Origin: Wenyingzhuangia sp. 2_MG-2023
GTDB lineage: Bacteria > Bacteroidota > Bacteroidia > Flavobacteriales > Flavobacteriaceae
Reading direction: 5' to 3'
NCBI RefSeq assembly: GCF_030548295.1
Contig: NZ_JAUOSB010000008.1
Coordinates: 1-64,000, forward strand
DNA length: 64,000 nucleotides
Both the position numbers and the translations under genes were made by a program. The notes under the pieces are model-generated. The model saw only the letters and a list, made by a program, of their open reading frames with translations. It made no database searches and was not told where the DNA came from. Of this stretch, positions 11,324-28,633 are shown in pieces (position 1 is the stretch's first letter; each line of letters opens with the position of its first letter).

Positions 11324-11379
11324 CAAATAAATTGATAAGTTGTCTGTTTTAAGGACTCTTTTCATTCATAAGATTGTTT
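11324..11379 (-). promoter_or_regulatory. Candidate promoter and PUL-regulator operator of susC
   Basis: A degenerate copy of the PUL operator box lies at 11350-11379. It shares the fixed positions ACAA, GAA, GA and AG with the other copies and matches the sulfatase copy at 20 of 30 positions by hand alignment. It is followed after 18 bases by TTTATTTG at 11324-11331, one base off the Bacteroidota -7 consensus TAnnTTTG. The spacing equals that at two other PUL promoters. This is the weakest copy compared with the paralogue pair. Confidence 0.45.
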
Positions 11380-11592
11380 TTTAAATACCTGATTGTTAGT
11401 TGTTTACAGGTGTTTCTGTCTTTTTTGAAAATAATAAAGTCAGTATTTTATAGGAAAAATAGAGAGGGACTTATATTTGTCAATTTATACTCATATTGAG
11501 GTTATAAACGAGCTAGTAAGTTTTCAATATTAGTATAATAATGAATGCTTGTGTTAAGTTTTTTGATAAGTAGTATGTTATGAATAATCTTT

Positions 11593-11639
11593 AAAAACAA
11601 AAACCACCAATAATATTATTATTGGCGGTTTTTGTTTTT
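11593..11639 (-). terminator. Rho-independent terminator of the sulfatase operon
   Basis: Two 22-base arms form a near-perfect inverted repeat around a 3-base centre. The single mismatch reads as a G-U wobble in the minus-strand transcript, so the stem is intact in that direction. It lies 8 bases after the stop of the 477-residue gene and ends that transcription unit before the susC promoter. Confidence 0.85.
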
Positions 11640-11646
11640 AAGTATC

Positions 11647-13080
11647 TTATTTTTTGATAAATCGTAGGTATTTAGAACTACCATTTTCAAAATTAGTTTT
11701 TAGAATATAAACTCCTTCTGGAAATACTGAAACATCAAATTGTTTTCTCAATCCTTTAAAAGACATTAATTTTTTTCCTAAGAAATTGTAGATCTCAGCA
11801 GAAACAGTTTCTTTATTTAAATAAAGAGTATTTGAAACAGGATTTGGGAATAATTTTAAATCATGATTTTCAATATTATTGTCATCTACTGATAAAGATA
11901 TTCCAATGTTCATATTGGCAACGATATCGTCTAAGTAATAATCAAAATCGGCTACTGGTTTAGTTCCAGAAAAAGTCATTACTAAAGTGTTGTATTCATC
12001 CTCATCAGCTAATACTGTACCTGACGAATTGTAAAAATTAAATGTATATTCTACCCAGTCAGCGCTATCTGTTAATGTAGCTGTTGAAGTAATTTGATTT
12101 GTTTGAGAATTGTTTTTTCTTAAAATAGCACTTATTAGTGTTCCAGGAACGTTGTCAAAATCACCCACATACATTTTTAGCTTTATAATAAGTGGATCTG
12201 AACTTCCATTTTTTACATTAGCGCCAAGTACTGATCCACCAAATGTTGTAAAACGAAGTGTAGTACCATTTTTAGCATCTGCGGCATTAGCACCTCCGCT
12301 ACCATATCTTGTTAACTTTGAAGCTGTATTTTCAGTATAGATACCTGTTTTAGCAGGGTTGTTTTGCCCAGAAACAAAGCCAACTCCAAATTCTCCACCA
12401 CTCGCAAGATCAATAACAGAAGTAGATGCTCCTGAATTGTACCAAGTATAATAAGTGACTTCCGGAGTTGAAATATTAACATTAGCTTTAATATCATCTA
12501 AGAAGTATTCAAAATCCTGTTCAGGTTTAGCACCTTCAAAAGTCAATACTAAAGTATTGTATTCGTCTTCAAGTGTTCCTACATGTGTTGAGGTAGAGTA
12601 ATCAAATGTATATTCAACCCAATCAGCACTATCTGTTAATGTAGCTTGAACAGTTACTTGGTTGCTAGCATTATTGTTTTTTCTTAAATGCATTTTTACG
12701 TTTGTGTTAGGAACATTTGCAAAATCGGAGACATACACTTTTATTTTTACAATTAGAGGATCTACACTTCCATTCTCTACTTTTGATGCATCGATCACTT
12801 CTTCAAAAGTTGTAAAACGTAATGTGTTTCCATTTTTAGCAAGTGCTGAGTTTGCACCTCCACTACCATATCTTGTTAATTTTGATGCTGTTGTTTCTGT
12901 ATAGATACCTGTGTTAACAGGGTTTGTTTGTCCTGAAACAAATCCAACTCCAAATTCTCCACCACTCGCAATATCAATGATAGAAGTAGCTGCACCTGAA
13001 TTGTACCAGTCATAAGATTGAGAAAAAGATGATAATGTTCCCATTATCAAAGCTGTAAGTATTAGTAACTTTGTTTTCAT
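11647..13080 (-). CDS. Secreted protein with two tandem copies of an unknown domain and a T9SS sorting domain
   Basis: I do not recognise the family. After a signal peptide (about 1-20), two copies of a domain of about 185 residues follow (about 21-205 and 208-395). Both copies show WYNSGA, ASGGEFGVGFVSGQ, GIYTE, ASKLTRYGSGGAN, LRFTTF, TLTDSADWVEYTF, DEYNTLV and FLDDI or YLDDI. The end is a T9SS sorting domain (LFPNP through FIKK). The composition and the closing LDDI strand recall beta-sandwich carbohydrate-binding domains, so a surface glycan-binding role is a reasonable inference, not shown. It has one domain more than its neighbour at 13152 and is the last gene before a terminator. Confidence 0.75.
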   Translation of the reverse strand: MKTKLLILTALIMGTLSSFSQSYDWYNSGAATSIIDIASGGEFGVGFVSGQTNPVNTGIYTETTASKLTRYGSGGANSALAKNGNTLRFTTFEEVIDASKVENGSVDPLIVKIKVYVSDFANVPNTNVKMHLRKNNNASNQVTVQATLTDSADWVEYTFDYSTSTHVGTLEDEYNTLVLTFEGAKPEQDFEYFLDDIKANVNISTPEVTYYTWYNSGASTSVIDLASGGEFGVGFVSGQNNPAKTGIYTENTASKLTRYGSGGANAADAKNGTTLRFTTFGGSVLGANVKNGSSDPLIIKLKMYVGDFDNVPGTLISAILRKNNSQTNQITSTATLTDSADWVEYTFNFYNSSGTVLADEDEYNTLVMTFSGTKPVADFDYYLDDIVANMNIGISLSVDDNNIENHDLKLFPNPVSNTLYLNKETVSAEIYNFLGKKLMSFKGLRKQFDVSVFPEGVYILKTNFENGSSKYLRFIKK

Positions 13081-13151
13081 AATAAATATTTGTTTAGTTA
13101 TCGTTTTAACTTCTGTAGTTTTTAAGAATACAATTCTAGATTGCTACAAGT

Positions 13152-13781
13152 TTATTTTTTGTTAGACTTAGTGATGTCAAAGTTGGCTGTAATGTCATCA
13201 AGATAGTATTCAAAATCTTCAGTAGGTTTGTTTCTTGAAGTAAGAACAATTACTAACGAATTGTAAGAATCAGCATAACCATCAGGACTTGTTTGTGCAT
13301 TTGTAAAATCAAATTCTATTTCTTGCCAATCGTTAGCCGTAGTTGAAGGAATTACTTTCGTTACTTGAAGTTGTGTGTTTGTTTTGTTTTTAGTTCTTAA
13401 TATTAAAGAAATACTATTGCTAGGGATGTTTTCAAAATTAGGCACATATAATTTTAATTTTACAGTTAGATCTGCATTTTCTCCTACTATTTTTGATTTA
13501 GGAACTGCAACTTTAAAAGTTTTAAATCTAACGGTACTTCCGTTTCTAGACATATCTGCATTTTTTCCTTCACTACCATATCTAACATATTTTGAAGCTG
13601 TTTTTTCTGTATAGATTCCTGTTGTTTTTGGATTTACATGTTCTGGAGTGTAAGATGCTCCGTGAAAATTAAAAGGTTCAAGATGTATTTCTCCAGATCC
13701 AGTATTATACCAAGTGTTTTGTGAAAATGATGACATTACTGAAAAAATCATTGCTGTTAAGAATAAGATTGTTTTTTTCAT
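13152..13781 (-). CDS. Secreted single-domain homologue of the tandem-domain protein
   Basis: After a signal peptide (1-20), this 209-residue protein holds one copy of the domain duplicated in the next gene. It shows WYNTGSGE, GIYTEKTASKYVRYGSEGKNA, VRFKTF, NDWQEIEFDF, DSYNSLVIVL and EYYLDDITANFDI. It has no T9SS domain and no lipobox, so it is probably periplasmic or released, while its partner is a T9SS cargo. No enzyme motif is visible. I see no TAnnTTTG element in the 154 bases upstream, so it is likely transcribed with the sulfatase and GH95-like genes. Confidence 0.7.
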   Translation of the reverse strand: MKKTILFLTAMIFSVMSSFSQNTWYNTGSGEIHLEPFNFHGASYTPEHVNPKTTGIYTEKTASKYVRYGSEGKNADMSRNGSTVRFKTFKVAVPKSKIVGENADLTVKLKLYVPNFENIPSNSISLILRTKNKTNTQLQVTKVIPSTTANDWQEIEFDFTNAQTSPDGYADSYNSLVIVLTSRNKPTEDFEYYLDDITANFDITKSNKK

Positions 13782-13935
13782 TATTAATAGTTTTTAGTGT
13801 TTATTTTTTATGAATTGTATTGTTTATTTGGTGAAATTATATTAAAAATATAATTGTTAGGTGCTCGTATTTATCATATAGTTGATTTATTAGATGTTGT
13901 TTACTTTGATTATCAATGTGATAGGTTTTTGTTTT

Positions 13936-16302
13936 TTATTTTACGGATTCGTTTAAGAATTTGACGTATTTCTTATTAAGTCCAAAAATATTAGCTTCGT
14001 CATCTGCCGATTTTACAATAGAGAGTTCCTTTGTTTTTTTAGTTTTTACTTGTAATGACTGCCCTTTCTTTAAATTTAATTTATAGAATCCATTAGCTTG
14101 CAATTTTAATTTGATGCGATCTTCTTTACCATTGCTGTCAATAATTGTAAATTTTGGAGACTTTATATCAATTGAAAATTCTATATTTTTGTCCTTTTCA
14201 GGGGTTTTTATAGTTAGCAAAGTAGGTTTGCTGTTAGAAAGATTTGCAGTAACCAAAAGTCCACCTTGCGTTCTAAATTCTTTAAAATAAATATCTTTCC
14301 ATTTAGAGGGAACCGCAGGAAAAACACGAATTTTTCCATCCCAACTTTGTAACAACATATCATGTATACTTGTTGCTGCAGAAAACGGACTTTCAATTAC
14401 GGGATTGTTACCTTCAGAATACATAGTGGTTGATGAAACATTTGTAAAAGGTAATTTTTGTAGATATGAAAGTGCTGTATTTCCGTCTTTTAAAGAGGCA
14501 TACATAGAGGCAGCTCCAGAACAAGTGTATCCAGTTACAGACATTGCCTTGTCTTTCTTTTTACTTGAATCAAAACTTGTTTTTAGCCAATGATCTAAGG
14601 ATGTCTTTAATAATTCATAATCTGAATCTGGTGTTAACAGGTATAGTGGATAAAAAGCTAATAAATGAGAATAATGTCTATGCGCTTTGTCAAAAGGAAT
14701 ATCAGCTCCAATTTTTAACCCATTTTCATCTTTTTGGTAATCCACTAAGTTGTCTAACATATTTTGCCAGTCAGCTTCTTTAGGATCATTTAAATGATGC
14801 TCTTTTGAGATGTCTAATAATGTTTGACAAGACCATTTGATTAATGATAAGGTATAATTTACATCTTTGCCTGTTCCGCCAGGATATTCTGGAGACCAAC
14901 TACTTTTGATATGGATTTTACCATCAGTTTCATTAGGTATTGGGTTGTCTTTGATATACTGAAAATATACATTAGTCGCTTTTTTAAGCAATGGAAATAA
15001 GCCGTCTTTCATTCTAGTTCTATCATCTGCATACTCGCACCATAACCAATAGTCATGCAGCATCCAAACAATGTGATCACTTACTCCTTTGCCTACTTTG
15101 GCTTTCATATCAGCAGGAAAAACGGTTCCTGCATTTAAACAATCATCACACCAACCTTCAGGAAGATTGTTGATTAGATTTTGTTCATACAAATCCATTT
15201 GATTAGGTAAAGATTCTCCTACGTTCAATCTGTTTGCTACCAAAGGAGTCCAATAGGTAAGTTGCACATTTAAATCGGTCCATATTAGAGGCCAGAAACC
15301 TGGTTGATACCATGGTCCCATAACATCTAATAGCATTCCATTTGATCTTGTAGAAGAAGCAAATTTGTACATTTGAATCCAATAAAACTGTTCCCAAAAC
15401 GCATCAGAAATTGATAAGAAGCTTTGAGGATAATAGTTACTCCACCATTTTTTATGATTTGCTTCGTAAGTACCATCGCTTATTTCTGAAGTTGCTTTAT
15501 CTAGTATTTCTTTAGATTTAATGAAAGAAGCACCTACATTTTTAGAGAAGTTTACTGTTCCCAAAACAGTCAGGCTATTTTTTTCATGAATTTCCTTCCA
15601 TGCATTTACTAATTGTCCAGAATCAGCATGTAATGTTTGCAAACTAAAAGTAATGTCATTTTCTTTTGTGATATGTGGATTTGGAGCTTTAGGGTAGGGG
15701 GCTTTTACAAAGTTTTTAGTGTAAGCAGGAGCATCATCTCCTTTTCTAGAAATTGTTTCTTCACTAACTTTTCTCGGATGTGAATATGCTTCGTCCGAAA
15801 ACCACTCTAAGCTAACGTTTTCACCATTTTCATTAAAAGTTTTAAAATAATAGGAATCGTAATTGCTTTGCACATAAGATTGTATTTGATACGTTCCTTT
15901 TTTTGTGATGACGGTTCCCGACAATTCTGCACGATACAAATCTAATTTCCAGTCTACTCCAACAATATCTCCTTTAGATTTTATTTTAAAATGTCCAATA
16001 GGCAAACGACCTCTATAAATCCAAGTATTTTCGTTGCCTTCGTGAGGGGGTCTGTTGTCATAATAATCACCTCTTCCAACATGAAGCTCTAAAATATTTT
16101 TAGCAGTACCATTAGGTTGAAACAACATCAACCCAACCATACCATTTCCTAAGTAAGGAGCTTCTTGCCATTTCTTTGGTGTTTTGTCCCAAACCATGTC
16201 TTGTTTGGCCATAAAACTAGACCAATTAATAGTTTGTTTTTCTTGAGCATTTATACTGTATACGAACAGTAATATTGCTATTGCAAAATTTATTTTTTTC
16301 AT
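13936..16302 (-). CDS. GH95-like glycoside hydrolase with altered catalytic motifs
   Basis: This protein resembles GH95 (alpha-L-fucosidase/alpha-L-galactosidase, inverting). A signal peptide (1-20) is followed by the N-terminal APYLGNGMVG motif (48-57), an (alpha/alpha)6-type middle part with SSWSPEY (467-473, Glu472) and HRHYSHL (541-547), and the late MLLQSWDGKI...FPAVPSKW region. Where well-studied GH95 enzymes have an Asn-x-Asn pair, this protein has DLN (343-345). Where they have the QIDGN aspartate, it has VIESP (Glu637). It may therefore act on another sugar or linkage, or be a GH95-related subfamily. It starts 3 bases after the sulfatase stop, so the two are coupled. Confidence 0.75.
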   Translation of the reverse strand: MKKINFAIAILLFVYSINAQEKQTINWSSFMAKQDMVWDKTPKKWQEAPYLGNGMVGLMLFQPNGTAKNILELHVGRGDYYDNRPPHEGNENTWIYRGRLPIGHFKIKSKGDIVGVDWKLDLYRAELSGTVITKKGTYQIQSYVQSNYDSYYFKTFNENGENVSLEWFSDEAYSHPRKVSEETISRKGDDAPAYTKNFVKAPYPKAPNPHITKENDITFSLQTLHADSGQLVNAWKEIHEKNSLTVLGTVNFSKNVGASFIKSKEILDKATSEISDGTYEANHKKWWSNYYPQSFLSISDAFWEQFYWIQMYKFASSTRSNGMLLDVMGPWYQPGFWPLIWTDLNVQLTYWTPLVANRLNVGESLPNQMDLYEQNLINNLPEGWCDDCLNAGTVFPADMKAKVGKGVSDHIVWMLHDYWLWCEYADDRTRMKDGLFPLLKKATNVYFQYIKDNPIPNETDGKIHIKSSWSPEYPGGTGKDVNYTLSLIKWSCQTLLDISKEHHLNDPKEADWQNMLDNLVDYQKDENGLKIGADIPFDKAHRHYSHLLAFYPLYLLTPDSDYELLKTSLDHWLKTSFDSSKKKDKAMSVTGYTCSGAASMYASLKDGNTALSYLQKLPFTNVSSTTMYSEGNNPVIESPFSAATSIHDMLLQSWDGKIRVFPAVPSKWKDIYFKEFRTQGGLLVTANLSNSKPTLLTIKTPEKDKNIEFSIDIKSPKFTIIDSNGKEDRIKLKLQANGFYKLNLKKGQSLQVKTKKTKELSIVKSADDEANIFGLNKKYVKFLNESVK

Positions 16303-16305: not shown

Positions 16306-17883
16306 TTATTGCTTAAAGTCTTCTGTAGCTAAATCTGTAACAAGTTCATTACATCTTTCTCTAAGTTCTTTTAAAATGGCTTTATTAGATTGCTCTCCAG
16401 CTAAATTGATTTGTTCTTTGCTGTCGTCTTTTAGATAGAATAACTCTTCATATATTGGCTGTTCTCCTTTTACTGAAGCCATTGGTAAATATTGATCTCT
16501 ATCATTATCTTTAGAAAAATATCGGATATATTTCCATTCTTTAGTTCTTACAGCCTCTATTCTTGGATAACCTTGTTGTGTAAATAAATTTTCAAAAAAT
16601 ACATCTTTACGCCAGTTTTTTGTTTTTCCTTGAATCAATGGTAAAACACTTTTTCCTTGGTAAGTGTTAGGAGTTTCTAAACCACACATATCTAAAATTG
16701 TTGGAGGCACATCTTGTCCAACAACCATTTCTTCTATTACTCTTTCACCTCCTTTTAAAAATGGAGAATAAATTAAAAAAGGAACTCTGATAGATTCTTC
16801 ATATAAAAATGTTTTTCCACCTAAGCCATGTTCTCCCAAAAGCAATCCATGGTCTGAAATAAATACTAGAATGGTGTTTTCTGCAACTCCCATTTCTTGT
16901 AATTGCTTACGAAGATTTCCTACAAAATTATCAATACCCGTAACAGCTCTTGCCATTTTCATTTTTTTGTCACGTAAAAAGTTTTCACTGGTAACATTGT
17001 AATATCCCATTAAATCTTCTTGTTTAAATACATTATCTGGTAGCGAAGATTTTTTAATTGGATAGCCTTCAGGCATAGGAAAGTCGTTTAGTTGATCTTG
17101 ATACAGACTTTTATACATTTCAGGATCTGTAGGTTTTTTACCCATCCCTCCAATACTTGCAGCATGAGGTAAATTAAAGTTTATAGACAAACAAAATGGT
17201 TTTGATTTATCTCTTCTGTTTAAAAAATGTTTTACAGAAGATCCTGCATTGTCAAAGAAATAATCTTTCTCTTTTGTTGGCTCTAAAAAAGTTTCTGTAG
17301 CTTCATACAGACCTTCTATTTGTGTTTCGTTTTTTAAATTTGAAAATTCTTGGCTATGACTTTGTGTAAGATGAAAACCTAAATGACCTGATGCCATATA
17401 GCAAAAATCTAAATTATCTTTCATGTATTGGTTACGCTCTCCTATAGGACCAATATTGGTATGATGTTTACCCAAATAACCTGTAAAATATCCGTTCTTT
17501 TTTAATTGCATTAAATAACTGTTATCAAATATTTTTTTTGGAACAAAGTTTTTAGAAACATGTGTAAAACCAACTTTATTGGTACGCTCCCATTGGCTTG
17601 TGAAAAAATTAGCTCTACTTGGTCCACAAATAGGACTTGTAATAAAGGCATTTTTAAAGTAGACTGCTTCTGTAGCTAATTGATCAATATTAGGTGTTTT
17701 GGTAATTGGGTGTCCGGTGAATCCCATAGAGTTGTATCTCTGATCATCTGTTTTGATGAAGATAACATTAGGTTTCATGGTTTTACTTATGGATGTTTTT
17801 GTTGTTGCCGTACTTTGTTTTAAGATTTTATTTCCACAGCTTAATAGTACTAAACTGATTAAAACGATGATTCTGTTTTTCAT
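16306..17883 (-). CDS. Family S1 sulfatase lipoprotein (Cys-type, formylglycine-dependent)
   Basis: This is a type I sulfatase removing sulfate esters from the PUL glycan. A signal peptide ends in LLSC (Cys16), so it is a lipoprotein. The metal-binding TDD lies at 45-47. The sulfatase signature CGPSR (86-90) has Cys86 as the residue to be converted to formylglycine. The second metal site is in VFISDHG, with LGEHG following. At 525 residues it is normal for S1. I cannot assign the subfamily or the sulfate position by eye. No maturation enzyme (anSME) lies in the window. It is the first gene of an operon with the GH95-like gene, behind a PUL-type operator. Confidence 0.93.
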   Translation of the reverse strand: MKNRIIVLISLVLLSCGNKILKQSTATTKTSISKTMKPNVIFIKTDDQRYNSMGFTGHPITKTPNIDQLATEAVYFKNAFITSPICGPSRANFFTSQWERTNKVGFTHVSKNFVPKKIFDNSYLMQLKKNGYFTGYLGKHHTNIGPIGERNQYMKDNLDFCYMASGHLGFHLTQSHSQEFSNLKNETQIEGLYEATETFLEPTKEKDYFFDNAGSSVKHFLNRRDKSKPFCLSINFNLPHAASIGGMGKKPTDPEMYKSLYQDQLNDFPMPEGYPIKKSSLPDNVFKQEDLMGYYNVTSENFLRDKKMKMARAVTGIDNFVGNLRKQLQEMGVAENTILVFISDHGLLLGEHGLGGKTFLYEESIRVPFLIYSPFLKGGERVIEEMVVGQDVPPTILDMCGLETPNTYQGKSVLPLIQGKTKNWRKDVFFENLFTQQGYPRIEAVRTKEWKYIRYFSKDNDRDQYLPMASVKGEQPIYEELFYLKDDSKEQINLAGEQSNKAILKELRERCNELVTDLATEDFKQ

Positions 17884-17947: not shown

Positions 17948-18003
17948 CAAAACTATAATCGAATTGTATAATTTGATAGCTCTTTTCTTTCGGATTGTTG
18001 TTT
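17948..18003 (-). promoter_or_regulatory. Candidate promoter and PUL-regulator operator of the sulfatase operon
   Basis: A copy of the PUL operator box lies at 17974-18003. Read on the minus strand it contains ACAACA, then CCGAAAGA, then AGCTA. After 18 bases comes TAGTTTTG (17948-17955), a perfect fit to the TAnnTTTG -7 element. The start codon is 65 bases further on. It matches the box of the 878-residue gene at 19 of 30 positions by hand alignment. Confidence 0.6.
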
Positions 18004-18093
18004 GGATACGACTTATTACTTATTAATTATCATTATTTTGACCTGATTTTTAAATATTTAATAGAAAGAGGTGGGGTTTAAAAGAGTTCAAAA

Positions 18094-18123
18094 AAAAACC
18101 TCGGAGTTTCTTCCGAGGTTTTT
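18094..18123 (-). terminator. Terminator of the hybrid two-component regulator gene
   Basis: A 12-base perfect stem (core CCTCGGA/TCCGAGG) with a 6-base loop and a flanking T-run lies 39 bases after the stop of the regulator gene. It separates the regulator from the sulfatase promoter region. Confidence 0.85.
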
Positions 18124-18161: not shown

Positions 18162-21100
18162 TTAATTTTTCTTAATGAGTTCTGAAGGAGATATACCATG
18201 TAATTGCTTAAAAATCTTAGAAAAATAAGATTTGGATTCTATTCCTATTTGATATCTTACTTCTGATACATTGTAGCCTTCATTACTTTTTAACATTTCA
18301 GCCGCTCTTTGAAGTCTATAATTTCTAATATAAACATTAGGTACTTGCCCGGTAAGTTTTTTTAAACGTCTGTAAAATTGTACAGAGCTCAAACCTATTT
18401 CTCTAGATAATTCTTCTACTCCAAATTCTGAATTGGATAAGTTTTTTTCAATTATTTCTACGATTTGAGATATAAAAAGTTCATCTCTTTTTGACAATTG
18501 AAATTCATTTTTTGAAAGGTCACTTTTCTTAGAGAAATGTTCTTTTATTTTATAATTGTTTTCAATAAATCGATCTATTCTTAATTCTAAATGTTTTATA
18601 GAAAAAGGTTTGCTTAAGTATTCATCAGCACCATACTCTAATCCCTTGATAGTGTCTTCTATAGTTCCCAAAGCTGTAAGCATTAATACGGGTATGTGCC
18701 AAGTTTCTGGATTTTTCTTTAGGTTTTCACAAAGTTCATACCCGTTCATTTCAGGCATCATAACATCGCTCACAATAAGAAGCGGTTCTTTAATTTTTAG
18801 TATTTCAAGGGCTTCAATACCATTGTTAGCTATGGTTACGTTGTATTTTAAAGACAATTCATTGTTCAAGAAATTTTGAATATCCTTTTCATCCTCTACT
18901 ACTAAAATAGAGGGTTTTTCTTTGTTTTGCTGCTCATCAGAAGGGACTAATTTTTCTTCTATCTTTGATGAAACAGGTTTCCATTCATTCACCAATGGTT
19001 TGTTATTTTTTTTCACAGGAGATACTTCAAGATCTTCATTGTTTTTTGATGGTATTTTTACTGTAAAACAAGTTTCAACTCCGGGATTACTTTTTGCGAA
19101 AATCTCTCCTTCCATCAAATCTACTAGTGATTTACAAAAAGACAAGCCAATACCTCCTCCTTTTATATCACCATCGGCACTACCTAATTGATAAAAACGT
19201 TCAAAAATATTGTCTATATCTTTAGGTTCTATTCCTTTACCATTATCAATTACATCAATTTTAATCCATTTTTTATTTGCAATAATTTCTATTTCTGCTT
19301 TAATTTTTATGATACCTTGTGAAGATGTATGTTTAAAAGAATTTGATAGTAGGTTAAAAACAATTCTTTCAATATTTTCAAGATCTACAATAATTTCTTC
19401 ATTGGGATTGTTTATTTGATGAGAAAAATCTAAATCTTTTTCTATTGCGTATCCTTCAAATGCTTCCGTAGCTGGATAGATAATATCTCCTAAAGATACT
19501 TTACTATAATGCAATCTAACTTGTCCTTTTTCAGCTTGTCGGAAAGTAATTAACTGATCTACTAGTTGAATTAGTCTTGTGGTATTTTTTTTAATAATTG
19601 TTAGATATTCGTTATTGGCTTGGTCTGTATTGTTAGCAATAATACGTTCTAATGGCCCAGATATTAAGGTAAGTGGTGTTCTAAATTCATGTGATAAATT
19701 TGTGAAATAACGAATTTTACCATCATTAATGGTTTCTAATTTTTCTTTTACAATTTCATCGTATTTAATAATTTGTTTTAACTTTTCATGGTGAATAGAG
19801 TAATATACAACTCCAACAGCTATTGATATGAATAGTATTAAAAGAAGAGAATAGCTCCACCAAGTCTTATACCAAGGGGGGATTACTTTTAAAAATAATT
19901 TTCTTTCTGAAGTACTCCAGATACCGTCTGAATTGGCTGCTTTTGTTTTAAAAATATACGCTCCACTAGAAAGGTTTGTATAGGTTACGATTGCCTTCCC
20001 TTTTTCTACCTTAATCCAATCTTTATTAAACCCTTCTAATGTGTATGATAACTGATTTTTAGAAGGAGTAGAGGTTTGGTCAACAGTTAAATTAAAGGAA
20101 ATTATTCTTTCTTTTTCGTTTATTGTGATAGAGTCTGTTTTTGTAATGGATTTTTTGAGTATTGTTTCTCCACTAACTTCTTCTCCTATTTTTACGGGCT
20201 TGTTGTTTATTAAAAATTCAGATATTAAGACATTTGGAGTCTGCTTGTTTACTTTGATATTTTCGGGTTTAAAAATAGTTAAGCCCTTTAAGCCTCCGTA
20301 ATAAAAATAACCTGATTTTCCTTTACAATAAGCAGCTTCTCTAAAATTATTTTGTTGAAGACCGTCTCTAACATCGTAAGAGTTTGTTCTGTGGTTTTCA
20401 GTATTAAATTTAACCAAGCCTTTGTCTGTGCTTATCCAAATGATTGAATCCGTATCTTTTAAGATGCTATAAATTACGTCATTTGATAAAATATCGTTTT
20501 CTCTTAAATCTTTTATTTCTGTTGGATTTTCTTCTGAATCAAAAGAAAGTTGATACAAGCCATCTCCGTAGGTTCCTATCCATAAGGATTTTTTTTCTCT
20601 ATGTAATGAAAAAATATCTTCAGTACTTAGTTTAAATCCATTATTCTCTTTGTTTGTTATATTTATTTGTTCTCCATCAAAAGATGTTTGAAGCAATCCT
20701 TTATTGGTTCCAATCCAAATATTATGATTGTCTTTTAGTATGGTTTGAACTCTTATTGGGCTTAAATCAATTAAAGATTTTACGTTTAGAATAGAATTGT
20801 TGTTGCTATTTAATTGAGACCATGGATTTTTTACCACTAAAATTCTATTACCTCCAAAAAGAATATTGTCATCATCTAATTCAATAATTTTTCTGGTTAA
20901 ATTTGTTTTTAGGATTGTTTTTTGATGCTTTAATGTTACTTTTTTGAATTTTTTTAAAGTTGGATTGTATACTATTAAAGAGAAATCTGTTCCAATCCAA
21001 ACAAAACCTTTTTTGTCTTCATAGAGGCATCTGACAACATCATTTTTTTCAATGGGAATTTGAATGTTTTTAAATTCAAGTTTGTCAATCGTTTCTTTGT

Positions 21101-22262
21101 TTATGATTTGATTACTGATAACCAGTGGGTTGTGGTATGCGGAAATCCATAGTTTTCCATTTCTATCCTCTAGTATCGAGTTGATTAAATTATCTGGAAT
21201 TGAGTTTGAATCGTAAGGATTGTTCGTGTAATTAAAGAATGGTTTTTGGTTCAAATCTAATTTATTGAGGCCTCCTTGTGCAGTTCCAATCCATAAAACA
21301 TTATAATTATCTTTGAAAATAGTTTTTATATAATTGCTACTAATTCCTTTTCTTTTCTTCGAATTATAACTGTATTGAGTAGTCTCTTTTTTATCAGTAT
21401 TGTATTTAAATAATCCGTGACCTCTGGTACCAAACCAAATATGACCTATGTTATCTTCATAAATAGTTTCAATATATAGTTCTTGTTTTTGTTTTGTTCC
21501 AAGTGTTTCTAAAATATAACTGACATTACTTTCTAAAGTGGTTTTATACCCTCCAGTATTCGTACCAATCCAAAAAACACTTTCTTTTTTAAAAATACTA
21601 GTAACATTTAGAGGTTCAAAATTTTTGTATCGAATCAATGATTCAATAGATAATTCTTTAATGTCACGTTTACTACCAAGCGTAATTTTTTCCAATCCAT
21701 AGGTGGTGGCTAATAATATATTGTCAGCATCTTTAAAAATAAAATCATTGATGATATGTGTTCTTGAAAATTGACTTAACAAATTTTTTGAGATGTTAAA
21801 ACTTGCTGTTTCTATGTTTATGGGAGTACAACAATAAATACTTTTTTCTCCAGAGAACCATATTCTACCTTCAGAATCTTCTCTTACTTTAGTTATTGAA
21901 ATTTCTTTTTCTAACGGAATGGTCACAAATTTTTCTAGTGAAGGTAGGTAAGCATTCAACCCTTTATTTGTTGCAATCCATAAGATGTTATTTGAATCAT
22001 TATAAAGATACTTGATAGAATTACTGATAATTTTCCCATTGGTCTTAGATTTTGAAGTAAACGTTCTAAACTGATAACCATCGTGTTTTATAAGTCCATT
22101 TGGAGTTCCATACCATAAAAAACCATAAGAATCTTTCGTAATACTACTAATAGTATTTTGACTAAACCCTTCTTTATTAGTGAATTTCTCAAAATTTTGA
22201 GCATTTATTGAAAGTGTAAATAGGATAAAACTAAAATATTCTATTAGTCGAAATTTCTTCAT
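18162..22262 (-). CDS. Hybrid two-component system sensor-regulator (HTCS) of the PUL
   Basis: This is a one-protein signalling system that senses glycan fragments in the periplasm and activates PUL transcription. A signal peptide is followed by a long periplasmic part of two-component propeller repeats (many IWIGT, LWIGT and IWFGT type motifs) and a Y_Y_Y domain. The membrane segment lies at about residue 805. The histidine kinase shows SHEFRTPL with the phosphorylated His and an ATPase domain with GGIGLSF. A receiver domain has VVEDE and SDVMMPEMNG, and the end is an AraC-type DNA-binding domain. The frame is open back to a TTG at 22298, but that codon overlaps a -7-like element (22296-22303). 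The ATG at 22262 gives a normal signal peptide, so I chose it. It has its own terminator. Confidence 0.96.
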   Translation of the reverse strand: MKKFRLIEYFSFILFTLSINAQNFEKFTNKEGFSQNTISSITKDSYGFLWYGTPNGLIKHDGYQFRTFTSKSKTNGKIISNSIKYLYNDSNNILWIATNKGLNAYLPSLEKFVTIPLEKEISITKVREDSEGRIWFSGEKSIYCCTPINIETASFNISKNLLSQFSRTHIINDFIFKDADNILLATTYGLEKITLGSKRDIKELSIESLIRYKNFEPLNVTSIFKKESVFWIGTNTGGYKTTLESNVSYILETLGTKQKQELYIETIYEDNIGHIWFGTRGHGLFKYNTDKKETTQYSYNSKKRKGISSNYIKTIFKDNYNVLWIGTAQGGLNKLDLNQKPFFNYTNNPYDSNSIPDNLINSILEDRNGKLWISAYHNPLVISNQIINKETIDKLEFKNIQIPIEKNDVVRCLYEDKKGFVWIGTDFSLIVYNPTLKKFKKVTLKHQKTILKTNLTRKIIELDDDNILFGGNRILVVKNPWSQLNSNNNSILNVKSLIDLSPIRVQTILKDNHNIWIGTNKGLLQTSFDGEQINITNKENNGFKLSTEDIFSLHREKKSLWIGTYGDGLYQLSFDSEENPTEIKDLRENDILSNDVIYSILKDTDSIIWISTDKGLVKFNTENHRTNSYDVRDGLQQNNFREAAYCKGKSGYFYYGGLKGLTIFKPENIKVNKQTPNVLISEFLINNKPVKIGEEVSGETILKKSITKTDSITINEKERIISFNLTVDQTSTPSKNQLSYTLEGFNKDWIKVEKGKAIVTYTNLSSGAYIFKTKAANSDGIWSTSERKLFLKVIPPWYKTWWSYSLLLILFISIAVGVVYYSIHHEKLKQIIKYDEIVKEKLETINDGKIRYFTNLSHEFRTPLTLISGPLERIIANNTDQANNEYLTIIKKNTTRLIQLVDQLITFRQAEKGQVRLHYSKVSLGDIIYPATEAFEGYAIEKDLDFSHQINNPNEEIIVDLENIERIVFNLLSNSFKHTSSQGIIKIKAEIEIIANKKWIKIDVIDNGKGIEPKDIDNIFERFYQLGSADGDIKGGGIGLSFCKSLVDLMEGEIFAKSNPGVETCFTVKIPSKNNEDLEVSPVKKNNKPLVNEWKPVSSKIEEKLVPSDEQQNKEKPSILVVEDEKDIQNFLNNELSLKYNVTIANNGIEALEILKIKEPLLIVSDVMMPEMNGYELCENLKKNPETWHIPVLMLTALGTIEDTIKGLEYGADEYLSKPFSIKHLELRIDRFIENNYKIKEHFSKKSDLSKNEFQLSKRDELFISQIVEIIEKNLSNSEFGVEELSREIGLSSVQFYRRLKKLTGQVPNVYIRNYRLQRAAEMLKSNEGYNVSEVRYQIGIESKSYFSKIFKQLHGISPSELIKKN

Positions 22263-22295
22263 AGTTGTAAAATATTTATTTTTCTTAGATAAAAC

Positions 22296-22303
22296 CAAAA
22301 TTA
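22296..22303 (-). promoter_or_regulatory. -7 element of the HTCS gene
   Basis: TAATTTTG on the minus strand fits the Bacteroidota consensus TAnnTTTG and lies 33 bases before the chosen ATG at 22262. No copy of the PUL operator box is seen next to it, which fits constitutive low-level expression of the sensor. Confidence 0.4.
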
Positions 22304-22447: not shown

Positions 22448-25400
22448 CTAATTTTTTAGTATCGTTTTATAGGCTATAGATCCATCTGTAAATACAAATC
22501 GGAGAAAAAAGGTTCCGTTTGATAAATGACTCATGTCGATCGTATCGGTTAATGTGTCTATCGTTAATAATAGTCTCCCTGAGATATCAAAAACTTCTGT
22601 TTTTAAACTTTTTTTAGATAAAAATAATTGAGCGTTTACGGGAATTGGACTTGCAGTAAAATTAAACTTCTCAATTTTAGCATTACTTAGATGATTCACT
22701 TCTGAAATTGTATAAGTATGAGTAATTGGGCAGCCAAATTGATCATAAGTAACGATATAATTTCCTAAACTACTCTCTGTAATTGGAGTTATCTCAAGAA
22801 CTCTACCTGTTTTAGAGAGATTGTTAGGGCCTGTCCATTGCCAGTTTTCTTGTGTACCTGTAGAAATAATTCCGTTTTCTATAACTACGGGTCCGAAAGT
22901 TATCTTATTCACTGAGTTTACATCTATTTCTAGATCGGAGTTAGATGTCCAAGCAGCAGCATCAATTTTTGATTGTACTCCAATACTTGATTCAGGTGGA
23001 GTAGTACCTAAATAGTATTTAATGACTGCAGTTCCATCTCCAGTAATGTCTTGATTGACATTGTATACCAAATCAAATAGTTCAGTTTCGGTATTGTAAT
23101 TAACTTGCCAAAAATCTTTTCCATGCAGAGATTGGTCTACAAGTTCCCAACAATTATCGTAAGATTTCCATAAAACAGGGTTTGTAATAGCACTCAATCC
23201 TGAAAACACGATTGGAACATAACCTCTACCTCCTGTAATAGTTACTTGAGCTGTGTTGTTAGAGGTTTCTACCGTAAGAGGATATGTTGTGTGTACTGTA
23301 TTTGTTGAAGATGTTGCCGTTATTTTATTCCCAAGAGATTCTCTATAAAGTAATTCGTACGAGTTAGCATAAGTTGTTAATGCATTTGAGAAATTTTCAT
23401 TAGGACCATAATAGTCTGTTTTTTGTTTGGGTAATACCGCAACTTCCACTAACAATTCTATTTTATCACCTTTTGTAAATGATGTTATTTCAGGGGGTGT
23501 TACCAAACAATAGGAGGTTGGATTGGTTCCTACACTTGCTGAAAATCCTTTAGAACTTGATCTTTCCATTAGATAAGGTGTGTTGTTTTCAGTTCCATTA
23601 AAAGTTGCTGAATAATCTCTGATAATCATTCCATTATTGGTGTCAATTTCAATATCACTATCCGCTCCTTCATAGTACAACCCGTCTCCTGCCCATACCC
23701 ATGGGTTTTCTCCTGTTAATGCAGTTTCACTTGTAGTATAGTCGTTAGATCCATCATTTGTTGGCGTAAATTGACCAACCATTCCAGTATCATCTCCATA
23801 CACAATGCTTTGAGCATTGTATACATTGTAGTTATCACCTCCTAATTGGAAAATATCAAACCGATCAAATGTGGTGTTTTCTAGTGCTTCAACAGTTATT
23901 TTATAATAAAGTCTGGTAAAATCATCAGACCTATTTAGGTAAAAGGTATAATCAAATTTTAACTTTTCGTCTTCAGAAATAGCAGAAATAGCGGTTTCCG
24001 TTAAATTAGGTGAATAGGCTTTAAATTGTGTTTTTACCTGTGCATGATGATTTCTAGTTCCATTACCATCTTCATAGATCAGCATATCTATTCCACCCAC
24101 ATTCCCCGTCCATCCACATTCTATAGATGTACCACCATAGGCTTCATTAGTCACTAAAAATGGACGAAGATCTGCTCCAATAGCATTTCCAAATTCATAA
24201 TCAGGAGAGTGTGTCATGTTTTCTCCAAAGCTTCCTAAGGCAGCTTCTAACCATCCACCTCTTGGAACTCCAGAACCAACCACTGATAATTGATGGGATG
24301 ATGCAGTATAGGTTTCTCCCCATTTTGCACCAGTTCTTTTGTAAACTAAGCTAAGTGTTGTGTTTGCAGGAATCACTATTTCTGTATATTCTTTAATCCA
24401 TGCCCCTGAATAGAATTGTGAGGTACCATCGTGCCAATTTTTAGAAACTTGTAAGGGCAAACCTGAAGGGTCTCCATTCGCGTTGCAAATAATAGAGTTA
24501 AAACCAACTACATTCACTGCGGGAAGTTGTCTGAAACATACTTTAGTAATTTTATCTTCAGAGGTAGTGTTCGTAAATGCCAAATCAATACTCTGTAGCC
24601 TATCTGTTGTTGCACAATTATTATATCCCATACCATATCTAGGAATATCAATATAGTGTATCGCATCATTGTCATCATAAGAAATAGCTGTTATTTCTTG
24701 AGTGGCAGGGGCTGTTTGTGAAGCAGTAATTGTTATTTCTTGTTCCTCTTCAAAAGCCTCAGTAAATTGTGTGGAGAGATTTTCTGTAATAGCAAAACAG
24801 ATGATACTTATTTGATAAGCTGTGTCAGTTACTAAATCTTGTTGTTTTGTCGTTACGGTAATTTCATTTCCATTAATACTTACAGTTTCTGCATTTATTC
24901 CTCCTTTTAGTACAAACCCTTTGTTGTCTAATGCGTATGCATGTAGTTGTCCTGAATTATAATAGTGTATGTATTCTGAAGGAATCTCAATTACTAGTTG
25001 TAGCTGACCATTGCTAATATCTTCAGTTGGTTTTACGTGAAATGTGATTTTAAATCTGTTATGCCAGTTCGTAAAATCTATACCCGTGTGGTAAGTATTT
25101 ACAGGAGCATCTCCATTAAAGTTGGTGCTAACAAATCGTCGATTTGACCATACTCCATATTCAGCCATTTGACTATCTCGAGCACCTATGCCTGTTGGAC
25201 TGTTGTTTTTATTATAAATAACAACACCACTTTGAAGAATTGCATAGTCAATATCTCCAGTGTAATTGTTGGGGAAAATAGCGGAGTTTAAAAGTGAAAA
25301 CCCTTCTTTTTGCGAAGAATGATCATTATTTACAAGCAGGCTATTTATTGATAAGTTTGTGTAGTCGATGTTTAACGCATAGCTACTCGTGTAGTTTGTA

Positions 25401-25597
25401 AAACTTCGATCACCAGAGATAGAAGTTTTCCAGTTGTTGTTCCAATAAGTATAGTTATAGGAATTGGTGAAATTGTCAAAAGAAGCTTGGTTAACGGAGG
25501 TTAAATTATTTTGAGAAAAACAGAAACTCAAACTTAAAAAGATAAGTGTTTGTAATGCTTTTGTAATGGAATGGTTACCTCTTAAGTTTTTGTTCAT
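22448..25597 (-). CDS. Large secreted protein of unknown family with T9SS sorting domain (paralogue of the 878-residue protein)
   Basis: I do not recognise a family. A signal peptide (about 1-29) is followed by roughly 840 residues highly similar to the neighbouring 878-residue protein, apparently all-beta, with conserved AEYGVWSNRRF, WHNRFKITFHVKP, IDIPRYGMGY, NHHAQVKT and YYGPNENF. After YYLGTTPP at about 868 it continues with an Ig-like part and a T9SS sorting domain (about 982-1049, with LSNGTFFLRF). It is thus exported to the cell surface or released. Position at the head of a fucan-type PUL that otherwise lacks a recognisable endo-acting enzyme makes an endo-hydrolase, lyase or glycan-binding role plausible, but no catalytic motif is known to me. 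Confidence 0.75.
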   Translation of the reverse strand: MNKNLRGNHSITKALQTLIFLSLSFCFSQNNLTSVNQASFDNFTNSYNYTYWNNNWKTSISGDRSFTNYTSSYALNIDYTNLSINSLLVNNDHSSQKEGFSLLNSAIFPNNYTGDIDYAILQSGVVIYNKNNSPTGIGARDSQMAEYGVWSNRRFVSTNFNGDAPVNTYHTGIDFTNWHNRFKITFHVKPTEDISNGQLQLVIEIPSEYIHYYNSGQLHAYALDNKGFVLKGGINAETVSINGNEITVTTKQQDLVTDTAYQISIICFAITENLSTQFTEAFEEEQEITITASQTAPATQEITAISYDDNDAIHYIDIPRYGMGYNNCATTDRLQSIDLAFTNTTSEDKITKVCFRQLPAVNVVGFNSIICNANGDPSGLPLQVSKNWHDGTSQFYSGAWIKEYTEIVIPANTTLSLVYKRTGAKWGETYTASSHQLSVVGSGVPRGGWLEAALGSFGENMTHSPDYEFGNAIGADLRPFLVTNEAYGGTSIECGWTGNVGGIDMLIYEDGNGTRNHHAQVKTQFKAYSPNLTETAISAISEDEKLKFDYTFYLNRSDDFTRLYYKITVEALENTTFDRFDIFQLGGDNYNVYNAQSIVYGDDTGMVGQFTPTNDGSNDYTTSETALTGENPWVWAGDGLYYEGADSDIEIDTNNGMIIRDYSATFNGTENNTPYLMERSSSKGFSASVGTNPTSYCLVTPPEITSFTKGDKIELLVEVAVLPKQKTDYYGPNENFSNALTTYANSYELLYRESLGNKITATSSTNTVHTTYPLTVETSNNTAQVTITGGRGYVPIVFSGLSAITNPVLWKSYDNCWELVDQSLHGKDFWQVNYNTETELFDLVYNVNQDITGDGTAVIKYYLGTTPPESSIGVQSKIDAAAWTSNSDLEIDVNSVNKITFGPVVIENGIISTGTQENWQWTGPNNLSKTGRVLEITPITESSLGNYIVTYDQFGCPITHTYTISEVNHLSNAKIEKFNFTASPIPVNAQLFLSKKSLKTEVFDISGRLLLTIDTLTDTIDMSHLSNGTFFLRFVFTDGSIAYKTILKN

Positions 25598-25644: not shown

Positions 25645-25700
25645 CAAATTAACTGATAATTAAGGGATGTTAGTAGCTTGAATCTTTCGATATGTTGTAC
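25645..25700 (-). promoter_or_regulatory. Candidate promoter and PUL-regulator operator of the 1049-residue gene
   Basis: The 30-base box at 25671-25700 is identical to the box before the 878-residue gene except for one base. It is followed after 18 bases by TTAATTTG (25645-25652), one base off TAnnTTTG. Box and start codon are 74 bases apart, against 76 for the paralogue. The surrounding sequence is not similarly conserved. Confidence 0.65.
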
Positions 25701-25732
25701 GAGTAAATTCTAATATGCATAAAAAGAGATCT

Positions 25733-25852: not shown

Positions 25853-25891
25853 AAATATTTTCTATTGATTGAGAAAATGAAGTGAGAAATT

Positions 25892-28528
25892 TTAAGGTTT
25901 CTTAGGGCTTGTTTTTGGGGTAGGGGTAGGGCCTAAATAATAACTTATAATAGCTGTTTTGTCTTTTTTAATATCTTGGTTGACATTGTATACTAGGTCA
26001 AATAAATTAGTTTCTGTATTGTAGTTTACTTGCCAAAAATATTTGCCATGTACAGATTGATCTACAATTTCCCATCGAGACGAATTTCCAGAAGATTTCC
26101 ATAAAACAGGATCAGTAACAGAGCTCAATCCTGAAAATACAATTGGGACATAACCTCTACCTCCTGTAATAGTTACATGTGCTGTATTGTTTGAAGTTTC
26201 AACGGTTAAGGGGTATGTCGTGCTAACTCGATTTGTAGAAGATGTTGCATTAATTCTGTTTCCAAGAGATTCTCTAAATAACAATTCATAAGAATTTCCA
26301 TAAGTTGCCAAAGCATTTGAGAAATTTTTATTTGGACCATAATAGTCAGCTTCTTGTTTGGGCAATACCACAATTTCTACCAATAATTCTATTTTATCTC
26401 CTTTTGTGAATGAAGTTATCTGGGGAGGTGTTACCAAACAATAGGAAGTTGGGTTTGTTCTTACGCTAGATGAAAAACCTCTAGAGCTTGATCTTTCCAT
26501 CATATAAGGTGTATTGTTTTCAACTCCTCCAAAATTAGCGGTATACTCTCTAATAATAATTCCGTTGTTAGTGTCTATTTCAATACCTGCTTTTGCTCCG
26601 TTTTGATACAGTCCATCTCCTGCCCATATCCATGGGTTTTCTCCTGTTAAGGCAATTTCACTTGTCGTATATTTATTGGATCCATCATTTGTAGGAGTAA
26701 ATTGGCCAATCATTCCAGTGTCGTTTCCGTAAATGATTTTTTGAGCATTGTAATAATTATAACTGTCACCTCCTAATTGAAAAATATCAAATCGATTAAA
26801 AGTCGTGTTTTCTAGTGCTTCAACAGTTATTTTGTAATAAACTCTTGTGAAATCATCAGATCTATTTAGGTAAAAAGTGTTATCAAATTTTAATTTCTTG
26901 TCTTCAGATATTGACGAAATATGGGTTTCTGTTAGATTGGGTGAATAGGCTTTAAAACGTGTTTTTACCTGTGCATGATGATTTCTTTTTCCATTTCCAT
27001 CTTCGTAGATGAGCATATCAAATCCACCAACATTACCGGTCCAACTACATTGTTTTGAAGAGCCACCATAAGCTTCATTAGTCACTAAAAAAGGACGAAG
27101 ATCTGCTCCAATACTAGCTCCGAATTCGTAATCAGGAGAATGTGTGACTGTTTCTCCAAAACTTCCTAAAGCAGCCTGAAGCCAACTTCCTCTAGGAACA
27201 CCTGATCCTACAACAGATAGCTGATGGGAAGAAGCCGTATAGGTTTTACCCCATTTAGCTCCTGTTCTTTTGTATTTTAAGTGAAGTGTAGTGTTTGCTG
27301 GAATTACGATTTCTGTATATTCTTTAATCCATGAGCCTGAGTAGAATTGTGAGGTAACCTCGTGCCAATTTTTAGAAACTTGTATAGGTAATCCGGACGG
27401 AGAGCCATTGTTGTTACATATCATAGAATTAAAACCAACTGTATTGATTGCGGGAAATTGTCTGAAACATAACCTTGAGGTTTTGTTTTTAGCTGTTTTA
27501 TTGGTTAGCTTTAAATCAATACTTTGAATTTCATCAACGGTGGCACAATTGGTATATCCCATATTGTACCTAGGAATATCAATATAATGTATCGCTTCAT
27601 TGGCATCATAAGAAATAGCTGTTATTTCTTGTGAGACAGGATTTGTTTGTGATGCTGTGATAACTGTTTTTTGTTCCTCTTCAAAAGCCTCTGTAAATTG
27701 TGTAGAGAGATTTTCTGTAATTACAGAACAGATGATACTTATTTGGTAGGCTCTGTCTTTTATTAAATTTTGTTGTTTGGTGGTTACGGTAATTTTATTT
27801 CCACTAATATTTATAGACTTTGCATTCATTCCTCCTTTTAGAACAAATCCTTTGTTATCTACTGCATAGGCATGTAGTTGTTCATAATTGTAATATTGTG
27901 TGTATTCTGAAGGGATTTCAATAGCTAATTGTAGCTGACCATTGTTGAAATCTTTTGTTGGTTTTACGTGAAATGTGATTTTAAATCGGTTATGCCAATT
28001 CGTGAAATCAATACCTGTGTAGTATTTGTTTATAGGAGGATTTCCATTAAAGTTGGTACTTATAAATCGTCTATTAGACCAAACTCCATATTCTGCCATT
28101 TGACTATCATGAACACCTACATTAGTAGGGGAGTTACTTTTTTCATAAATAACAACACCGTTTTGAAGAATTGCATAGTCAATATCTCCTGTATAATTTG
28201 TGGGGAAAATAGCTGAGTCTAAAAGTGAAAATCCTTTTTTTTGAGAAAAATTGTCATTGTTGATAAGTAGACTGTTTATCGATAATTTCGTGTAGTTGAT
28301 GTTTAGTGAGTAGCTACTCGTATAGTTGGTAAAACTTCTGTCTGTAGAAATTGGAGAAAGCCAATTATGATTCCAATATGTGTAGTTATAGGAGTTGGTA
28401 AAATTGTCAAAAGAAGTTTGATTAACAGAGGTTGTTTGATTTTGAGAAAAACAAAAACTCAAACTTAAGAAGATAAATATTTTGGATAATCTTGTAATAA
28501 TGGGATTCGAATTTAATTTTTTGTTCAT
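25892..28528 (-). CDS. Large secreted protein of unknown family, without T9SS domain (paralogue of the 1049-residue protein)
   Basis: This is a close paralogue of the next gene, about four fifths identical by eye in the first 220 residues. A signal peptide (about 1-29, ending FCFSQ) has no proper lipobox. The conserved core motifs AEYGVWSNRRF, WHNRFKITFHVKP, NHHAQVKT and YYGPNKNF are all present. The protein ends just after YYLGPTP with a short Pro/Lys/Thr-rich tail, so the Ig-like part and T9SS domain of the paralogue are absent. It should therefore stay in the periplasm while the paralogue goes outside. The function is unknown; see the paralogue for the inference from context. It is the first gene of the PUL. 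Confidence 0.75.
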   Translation of the reverse strand: MNKKLNSNPIITRLSKIFIFLSLSFCFSQNQTTSVNQTSFDNFTNSYNYTYWNHNWLSPISTDRSFTNYTSSYSLNINYTKLSINSLLINNDNFSQKKGFSLLDSAIFPTNYTGDIDYAILQNGVVIYEKSNSPTNVGVHDSQMAEYGVWSNRRFISTNFNGNPPINKYYTGIDFTNWHNRFKITFHVKPTKDFNNGQLQLAIEIPSEYTQYYNYEQLHAYAVDNKGFVLKGGMNAKSINISGNKITVTTKQQNLIKDRAYQISIICSVITENLSTQFTEAFEEEQKTVITASQTNPVSQEITAISYDANEAIHYIDIPRYNMGYTNCATVDEIQSIDLKLTNKTAKNKTSRLCFRQFPAINTVGFNSMICNNNGSPSGLPIQVSKNWHEVTSQFYSGSWIKEYTEIVIPANTTLHLKYKRTGAKWGKTYTASSHQLSVVGSGVPRGSWLQAALGSFGETVTHSPDYEFGASIGADLRPFLVTNEAYGGSSKQCSWTGNVGGFDMLIYEDGNGKRNHHAQVKTRFKAYSPNLTETHISSISEDKKLKFDNTFYLNRSDDFTRVYYKITVEALENTTFNRFDIFQLGGDSYNYYNAQKIIYGNDTGMIGQFTPTNDGSNKYTTSEIALTGENPWIWAGDGLYQNGAKAGIEIDTNNGIIIREYTANFGGVENNTPYMMERSSSRGFSSSVRTNPTSYCLVTPPQITSFTKGDKIELLVEIVVLPKQEADYYGPNKNFSNALATYGNSYELLFRESLGNRINATSSTNRVSTTYPLTVETSNNTAHVTITGGRGYVPIVFSGLSSVTDPVLWKSSGNSSRWEIVDQSVHGKYFWQVNYNTETNLFDLVYNVNQDIKKDKTAIISYYLGPTPTPKTSPKKP

Positions 28529-28576
28529 CTTTTAATATAATATGCCTTGATCAATAGAGTGAGGTTTCTTTTTAAG

Positions 28577-28633
28577 CAAATATAATTGATATTTTAGGGC
28601 TAATAGTAGCTTGAATCTTTCGAGATGTTGTAC
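28577..28633 (-). promoter_or_regulatory. Candidate promoter and PUL-regulator operator of the 878-residue gene
   Basis: The 30-base operator box lies at 28604-28633 (minus strand: ACAACAT, then TCGAAAGATT, then AAGCTACTA). It is followed after 19 bases by TATATTTG (28577-28584), a perfect TAnnTTTG -7 element, and 48 bases later by the start codon. The box covers the place where a -33 element would be, as expected for an activator-dependent promoter. Confidence 0.65.

Follow-up and report, generated by a model that had tools for sequence, protein, structure and literature searches.

At the I1-I2 site of AraC in Escherichia coli, two tandem half-sites lie 21 bases apart, and the downstream half-site covers the upstream element of the promoter. 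Algal carbon in the form of fucan is degraded slowly, and to our knowledge few regulators of sulfated-fucan breakdown have known sites. Here we describe four 30-base boxes in a 64,000-nucleotide stretch of DNA from the flavobacterium Wenyingzhuangia sp. 2_MG-2023 (contig NZ_JAUOSB010000008.1, positions 1 to 64,000; “the window”), where they sit at promoters of a polysaccharide utilization locus (PUL) beside the gene for a hybrid two-component system (HTCS) protein. Judged from sequence, they are real candidates for the binding sites of the PUL’s own sugar-sensing regulator. The likeness to AraC lies in tandem half-sites 21 bases apart, seen here in relatives, with the downstream one over a -35-type region; the differences are that the regulator here is a membrane-bound hybrid kinase, that the promoter is of the Bacteroidota type and that binding is predicted.

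For Bacteroides, HTCS motifs have been predicted as tandem direct repeats with sites averaging 21 bp, and motif similarity generally tracks regulator similarity (Ravcheev et al. 2013, PMC3878776; this paper and those below are cited from parts of their text). As with those motifs, the sites described here lie upstream of susC/susD-type operons beside an HTCS gene, and relatives show the tandem repeat. The present locus differs in belonging to another class (Flavobacteriaceae), in its probable substrate, sulfated fucan, and in the degenerate state of the upstream copy. A fixed distance to the -7 element was not found stated in the consulted parts of that paper. For BT4124 and BT4663 of Bacteroides thetaiotaomicron, the receiver plus AraC-type domain was tested by electrophoretic mobility shift assay on susCD promoters (PMC11253607). 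The window’s HTCS resembles them in this architecture, although it has W for the conserved S/C of the S/CHIP motif; the comparison covers the proteins.

Tandem HTCS operators with 21-base spacing are therefore a known kind, predicted for Bacteroides in 2013. Among the titles and abstract openings of the open-licence papers that our searches listed, we found no operator of a flavobacterial fucan HTCS and no fixed placement of one. As far as these searches show, three things are new: the HTCS clade, its probable regulon for fucan, and the evidence that placement is fixed within this clade.

Boxes and -7 elements in the window

A sequence-only reading of the window had proposed four minus-strand boxes sharing the pattern ACAA-N6-GAA-N-GA-N4-AG, each 18-19 bases before a TAnnTTTG or one-off element. 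All four were recovered where it had placed them, with the pattern intact and with measured spacings of 19, 18, 18 and 18 bases. Footprints are given by analogy with relatives.

28604-28633, minus strand: box 1, before the gene for an 878-amino-acid (aa) protein; -7 element TATATTTG at 28577-28584, spacing 19; footprint 28608-28645
25671-25700, minus strand: box 2, before the 1049-aa gene; -7 element TTAATTTG at 25645-25652, spacing 18; footprint 25675-25712
17974-18003, minus strand: box 3, before sulfatase-GH95; -7 element TAGTTTTG at 17948-17955, spacing 18; footprint 17978-18015
11350-11379, minus strand: box 4, before susC-susD-esterase-GH29; -7 element TTTATTTG at 11324-11331, spacing 18; footprint 11354-11391
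13858-13887, minus strand: weak fifth candidate, before a 209-aa gene; AATCAACTATATGATAAATACGAGCACCTA, with a TGA core in register and a poor -7 element, TAATTTCA, with two mismatches

The identities given earlier were also correct: 29/30 between boxes 1 and 2, 19/30 between boxes 3 and 1, and 20/30 between boxes 4 and 3 (pairwise values of 29, 19, 19 and 20 of 30), while box 4 agrees with boxes 1 and 2 at only 14 of 30 positions. TAnnTTTG at -7, the housekeeping promoter feature of Bacteroidota (-7 and -33 consensus, PMC7366714), is exact at boxes 1 and 3 and one-off at boxes 2 and 4. It had further been claimed that every transcription unit of the PUL except the regulator itself has a box, the units being four in number. 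No box was found at the promoter of the HTCS gene, as claimed; the list of units is not quite complete, since a further gap, upstream of the 209-aa gene, holds the weak candidate.

The genes that follow boxes 1 and 2 are tandem paralogues (878 and 1049 aa, 80% identical), and for this reason we count the two boxes as one event. Such an arrangement could suggest that the boxes are remnants of promoter duplication without a regulatory role. However, no other part of the compared block is as well conserved as the box (29/30, against 80% in coding DNA, 61% in the leader and 53% in upstream DNA), boxes 3 and 4 precede unrelated genes, and orthologous promoters retain the box (see below). We regard the remnant explanation as hardly credible.

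The boxes are rare in their own genome. The exact pattern ACAA-N6-GAA-N-GA-N4-AG has 11 matches in 3.98 Mb, four of them in the window, and the reversed pattern has two; a stricter consensus of boxes 1-3 matched exactly only at these boxes in this and two related genomes. In a leave-one-out matrix scan of 358,002 positions, covering parts of the own genome, sequence alone placed box 3 first, boxes 1/2 (trained on boxes 3 and 4) about 19th and box 4 about 22nd. We then required a -7 element with at most one mismatch 18 or 19 bases downstream. With box 4 left out, this returned, besides the training boxes, only box 4 and the sulfatase promoter of a paralogous locus (C1); with boxes 1/2 left out, it returned both boxes and two positions inside genes (C189:144525 and C200:22719).

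A composite pattern of box and -7 element, searched over the whole genome with at most one mismatch, gave boxes 2, 3 and 4 only. Two mismatches added two promoters of the C1 locus and one other place, and box 1 scored three mismatches because its spacing is 19. At up to three mismatches there were 67 matches compared to 53 for the control; looser forms of the pattern are therefore not specific. Across the genome, the pattern with -7 thus did not match many unrelated promoters, an outcome that would have counted against the boxes. The earlier suspicion that the fourth copy could be chance is not borne out: the left-out scan with -7, the composite pattern and the boxes at SusC orthologues together rule out chance as its origin.

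The proposed operator in related HTCS loci

Of 397 genomes sampled in the family, a further 13 encode relatives of the window’s HTCS at E <= 1e-250 (38-55% identity), and its own genome encodes three paralogues that are 51, 47 and 40% identical (C1, C189 and C200). In PULs with the same HTCS clade, RAGCAA-N6-GANNGA-N3-RAG lies 18 bases before TAnnTTTG. We assembled 95 exact intergenic TAnnTTTG anchors, chosen regardless of any box, from 20 regions around related HTCSs with the window left out. GCAA was at -46 in 13 anchors and at -25 in seven (mean 0.63 per offset), and RAG was at -27 in 19 and at -48 in 17. A direct-repeat test on the same anchors peaked at lag 21 at -58 with a z of 6.3, whereas no other lag exceeded 2.9. 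Strong repeats, defined as 10 or more of 17 bases identical, were found at 12 of the 95 anchors against 2.2 expected, a count reached by 0 of 500 shuffles.

The family operator thus consists of two half-sites of ~17 bases placed 21 bases apart, at -60 to -44 and at -39 to -23. In a family matrix of 31 sites each half-site reads about AWTGRTYGAWWWRAGCA, and a site scoring above the cut-off of the fit is present in 14 of the 20 regions, these sites and regions being the training data. The 30-mer of the first reading starts at -48 and so spans some one and a half half-sites, namely the last part of the first and all of the second; the element conserved in relatives extends about 12 bases further upstream. 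An earlier motif fit, whose cut-off of 7 bits was too low, drifted towards A-rich sequence, and only its spacing histogram and top rows were used. The histogram puts an exact -7 element at 18 in 20 sites, at 19 in five and elsewhere in at most one, with eight of its sites being seeds picked for that spacing.

Orthologous promoters retain the box. The six SusC orthologues encountered among the loci compared (47-51% identity; genomes G004, G257, G351, G363, G232 and G202) all have a family box; the -7 element is exact in G351, G363 and G202 and one-off in G257 and G232. Orthologues of the 1049-aa protein in G363 and G008 have the box at the same distance from the start, the G008 gene being on a different contig from the HTCS gene, while in G351 the box is degenerate and visible only in alignment. 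Orthologous PULs devoid of boxes, which would have spoken against the operator, were accordingly not what we saw: the box is present at six SusC orthologues, clear in two genera before the 1049-aa orthologue and degenerate in a third.

A family composite of box and -7 element, written by hand from training sites and allowing up to two mismatches, matched 65 sites in 12 genomes that encode the clade HTCS, against 6 for the reversed control, and seven sites in 12 genomes that lack it, against 2 for the control. Of the 65, 39 are outside the training regions and the window. Thirty of these 39 are intergenic with a correctly oriented open reading frame at most 312 bases on, one of them overlapping the predicted start; the others comprise one with a reading frame at 575, one intergenic site with none, and seven inside genes. 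Only one of the seven sites in genomes without the clade HTCS is in promoter position. Fifteen of the genes after the 30 outside sites, classified by Pfam or by BLAST to the window’s proteins, encode a sulfatase (6), GH29 (4), GH95 (3) or SusC (2). A Pfam scan of 19 downstream proteins, of which one comes from a genome that lacks the clade HTCS, gave six sulfatases, three GH29, two GHL15, one 3-keto-disaccharide hydrolase, one BD-FAE esterase, three with a type IX secretion system (T9SS) tail only and three with no family. The genes to which the family operator points are those for fucosidases, sulfatases, GH95 and SusC, and some of them lie outside the locus of the regulator gene. The operator can thus help to draw up, from sequence alone, the probable fucan regulon of a flavobacterium and to flag unknown proteins for assay.

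A box at a fixed distance from -7 might also belong to the core promoter as an extended element, or be bound by a different regulator acting at the -33 region, for example a sigma factor or a global activator. This is very unlikely: the box is nearly absent from the 12 related genomes without the clade HTCS, relatives show a 21-base tandem structure, and distant HTCS loci have the lag-21 tandem without enrichment of GCAA at -46. An extracytoplasmic function sigma factor or a global regulator is likewise not favoured, given the scarcity of composite sites in genomes without the clade HTCS.

Further family-type sites were noted in passing. In G008, five lie within 35 kb (C14:18163-53426; L231-L233) among sulfatase, GH29, GHL15 and GH95 genes, and the clade HTCS is encoded on a different contig; a regulon in trans is possible. 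In the own genome (G000), sites at C1:95941, C189:215539 and C222:148588 precede a T9SS protein, a protein with no Pfam family and a sulfatase, and perhaps mark regulons of the paralogous HTCSs. In the window, a half-site resembling those of the family, ATTGATTGAAATAAATAAG, lies in the gap at 4940-5109 before the GH29 gene, with a poor -7 element about 21 bases downstream; the GH29 orthologue in G004 has a full family box.

Proposed reading of the boxes by the local HTCS

We consider it probable, with good confidence, that the four boxes are operators through which the local HTCS controls a sulfated-fucan PUL; binding, dependence on phosphorylation, activation and the inducer are what we infer. 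The local HTCS combines Reg_prop, Y_Y_Y, HisKA, HATPase_c, Response_reg and HTH_18 domains in one chain. Its earlier nomination as the binder gains support from the distribution of composite sites (65 compared to 7) and from the 21-base tandem geometry of HTCS motifs (PMC3878776). In the proposed mechanism, the sensor would bind a fucan fragment in the periplasm and the kinase part would then phosphorylate the fused receiver. The AraC-type domains of two protomers would bind the two tandem half-sites, 21 bases or two helical turns apart, on one face of the DNA. Because the downstream half-site ends about 22 bases before -7, the protomer bound there would lie over the -33 region, where it could recruit RNA polymerase.

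Several observations weigh against this reading. The family matrix scores boxes 3, 4, 2 and 1 at only 6.7, 1.1, -2.5 and -6.9, while training sites in relatives mostly exceed 20. At lag 21 the window boxes are identical in 5, 5, 5 and 8 of 17 positions, not clearly above neighbouring lags, and their upstream half-site is poor. The -7 element is poor at the SusC orthologue of G004 and at all three orthologues of the 1049-aa gene (G363, G008 and G351). The three paralogous HTCSs of the own genome have similar domains. The receiver of the local HTCS reads WHIP, not CHIP, which could mean different control, and the HTCS BT2391 acts as a repressor (PMC11253607).

One possibility is that the paralogous HTCSs (C1, C189 and C200) read the boxes, alone or with the local one. 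They are 40-51% identical to it, and promoters of the C1 locus carry the family box. On the other hand, the core of the window boxes is not the one usual in the family: in boxes 1-3, CGA replaces the TGA of box 4 and most relatives, and all four boxes have ACAA for GCAA. Moreover, among 17 close members only the local HTCS has several changes in the presumed recognition-helix stretches, and the window pattern with -7 at up to one mismatch finds window sites only. We therefore think it unlikely that the paralogues are the readers.

Box position is what suggests activation rather than repression, and PUL HTCSs have mostly been described as activators. A protein over the -33 region can also block polymerase, and the local HTCS could repress from the boxes. 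The WHIP deviation would be in line with this: S/CHIP, at the receiver face holding the DNA-binding domain, is linked to inhibition of DNA binding, HTCSs with a deviating motif are predicted to lose the inhibitory contact, and BT2391 is a repressor (PMC11253607). However, relatives whose HTCSs have CHIP show the same box placement, and repression appears quite unlikely to us. Among 22 HTCSs, WHIP occurs in the window’s, CHIP in 17 others, and four were unmatched by the search string. The local HTCS thus lacks the S/CHIP feature, but this does not exclude it from the HTCSs, as the motif is common and not universal, with S/C in 84% of Bacteroides HTCSs (PMC11253607).

The local HTCS, our preferred reader of the boxes, is itself divergent, with the longest branch among the 17 close members (0.81). 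Two stretches were taken as recognition helices (numbering from the ATG; the domain limits used for this residue comparison were off by 12 residues). At positions invariant in 16/16 others, its changes include S to V in the first stretch as well as S to I and K to Q in the second, with a T to K change beside these at a position kept in 14/16. Its mean identity to the clade is 0.67 against 0.76 in the DNA-binding domain, 0.59 against 0.70 in the kinase and 0.65 against 0.68 in the receiver. As the kinase and receiver values are also lower, the divergence is not confined to the DNA-binding domain. A joint change of regulator and operator is plausible, given CGA in place of TGA in three boxes, residues unique to this HTCS in each of the two presumed recognition-helix stretches, and the loss of CHIP; drift may instead explain the divergence of both.

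Layout of other HTCS promoters and genes of the window

We applied the repeat tests to 79 distant loci, mostly of Bacteroidota, with HTCSs of about 25-35% identity (147 anchors). Lag 21 again stood out, at -60 (z 5.9; next lag 2.3), and 17 of the 147 anchors had strong repeats against 1.6 expected, reached by 0 of 500 shuffles. These 17 are not all independent, since two are low-complexity (L092) and four precede apparently orthologous 705-aa Parabacteroides genes. With three L092 anchors dropped, TGA was at -37 in 16, at -58 in 11 and at -57 in 10 of 144 anchors (mean 3.0). Among 68 control anchors its highest count was five, at -49, with three at -58 (mean 1.3). When repeats were sought first, without -7, lag 21 gave 129 in the distant set against 28-77 for other lags, 27 against 2-14 in a third set, 21 against 3-17 in the control set, but only 27 against 6-27 in the clade set, in which lag 23 did equally well. 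Seven of the 21 control repeats are in L200 and L203 and look like simple repeats with a period of about seven.

Other results speak against a general layout rule. In the third set (20 Flavobacteriaceae HTCS loci, 39 anchors), lag 21 reached a z of only 3.0 and strong repeats numbered 2/39, reached by 83 of 500 shuffles, neither being significant. In the control set (20 arbitrary regions, 68 anchors), lag 21 was also top (z 3.6), with lags 32 and 10 at 3.5 and 3.1, and strong repeats were 5/68, a count reached in 2 of 500 shuffles. At other positions, decoy anchors produced z values as high as 3.6. In the repeat-first test of the distant set, the 24 exact -7 elements near such repeats were scattered, with offset 38 occurring three times, 68 three times and 25 twice.

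The fixed layout is thus likely for the clade and unproven as a rule of the phylum. A broader proposal is that HTCS promoters across Bacteroidota share a rigid layout with any half-site sequence, TGA cores lying at -58 and -37 before the first T of TAnnTTTG, and that the window’s regulator and operator changed together into an insulated pair among four paralogues. We hold this to be doubtful, a little more so than before, because the repeat-first test gave no sharp distance to -7. If placement proved fixed throughout the phylum, one promoter would suffice to read an HTCS operator; if the shared layout were true, it would offer many regulator-operator pairs for a recognition code.

The genes of the locus are as follows.

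25892-28528, minus strand: 878-aa protein, no Pfam family at E 0.001; the next gene is 80% identical
22448-25597, minus strand: 1049-aa paralogue of the 878-aa protein, with a weak T9SS tail match
18162-22298, minus strand: HTCS; propeller sensor, Y_Y_Y, HisKA, HATPase_c, receiver, AraC-type HTH; ATG at about 22262, TTG at 22298
18094-18123, strand not assigned (reported on the plus strand, the stem being a palindrome): terminator-like hairpin of 13 pairs between the HTCS stop and box 3
16306-17883, minus strand: sulfatase
13936-16302, minus strand: GH95-type protein
13152-13781, minus strand: 209-aa protein, no family at E 0.001
11647-13080, minus strand: 477-aa protein, T9SS-tailed
8124-11294, minus strand: SusC
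6429-8114, minus strand: SusD
5110-6396, minus strand: esterase/peptidase-like protein (AXE1, Peptidase_S9)
3122-4939, minus strand: GH29 alpha-L-fucosidase
449-3097, minus strand: SASA-type esterase with T9SS tail

Sulfated fucan fits as the substrate because of this gene content (SusC/SusD, GH29, GH95-type protein, sulfatase, esterases and T9SS-tailed proteins). The HTCS probably starts at the ATG 12 codons inside the listed TTG start. The 13-pair hairpin sets the HTCS gene apart from the sulfatase unit, and a second terminator-like hairpin, around CCGCCAATAATAATATTATTGGTGG (about 11593-11639), sets the 477-aa gene apart from the SusC promoter.

The 878- and 1049-aa proteins have no PDB sequence match and, apart from the T9SS tail of the latter, no Pfam family at E 0.001; an AlphaFold model had a mean predicted local distance difference test score of 33.5 and was left unused. 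Relatives at E <= 1e-30 occur in 4 of the 397 family genomes, the own genome included. The tandem pair are candidate new fucan-active proteins.

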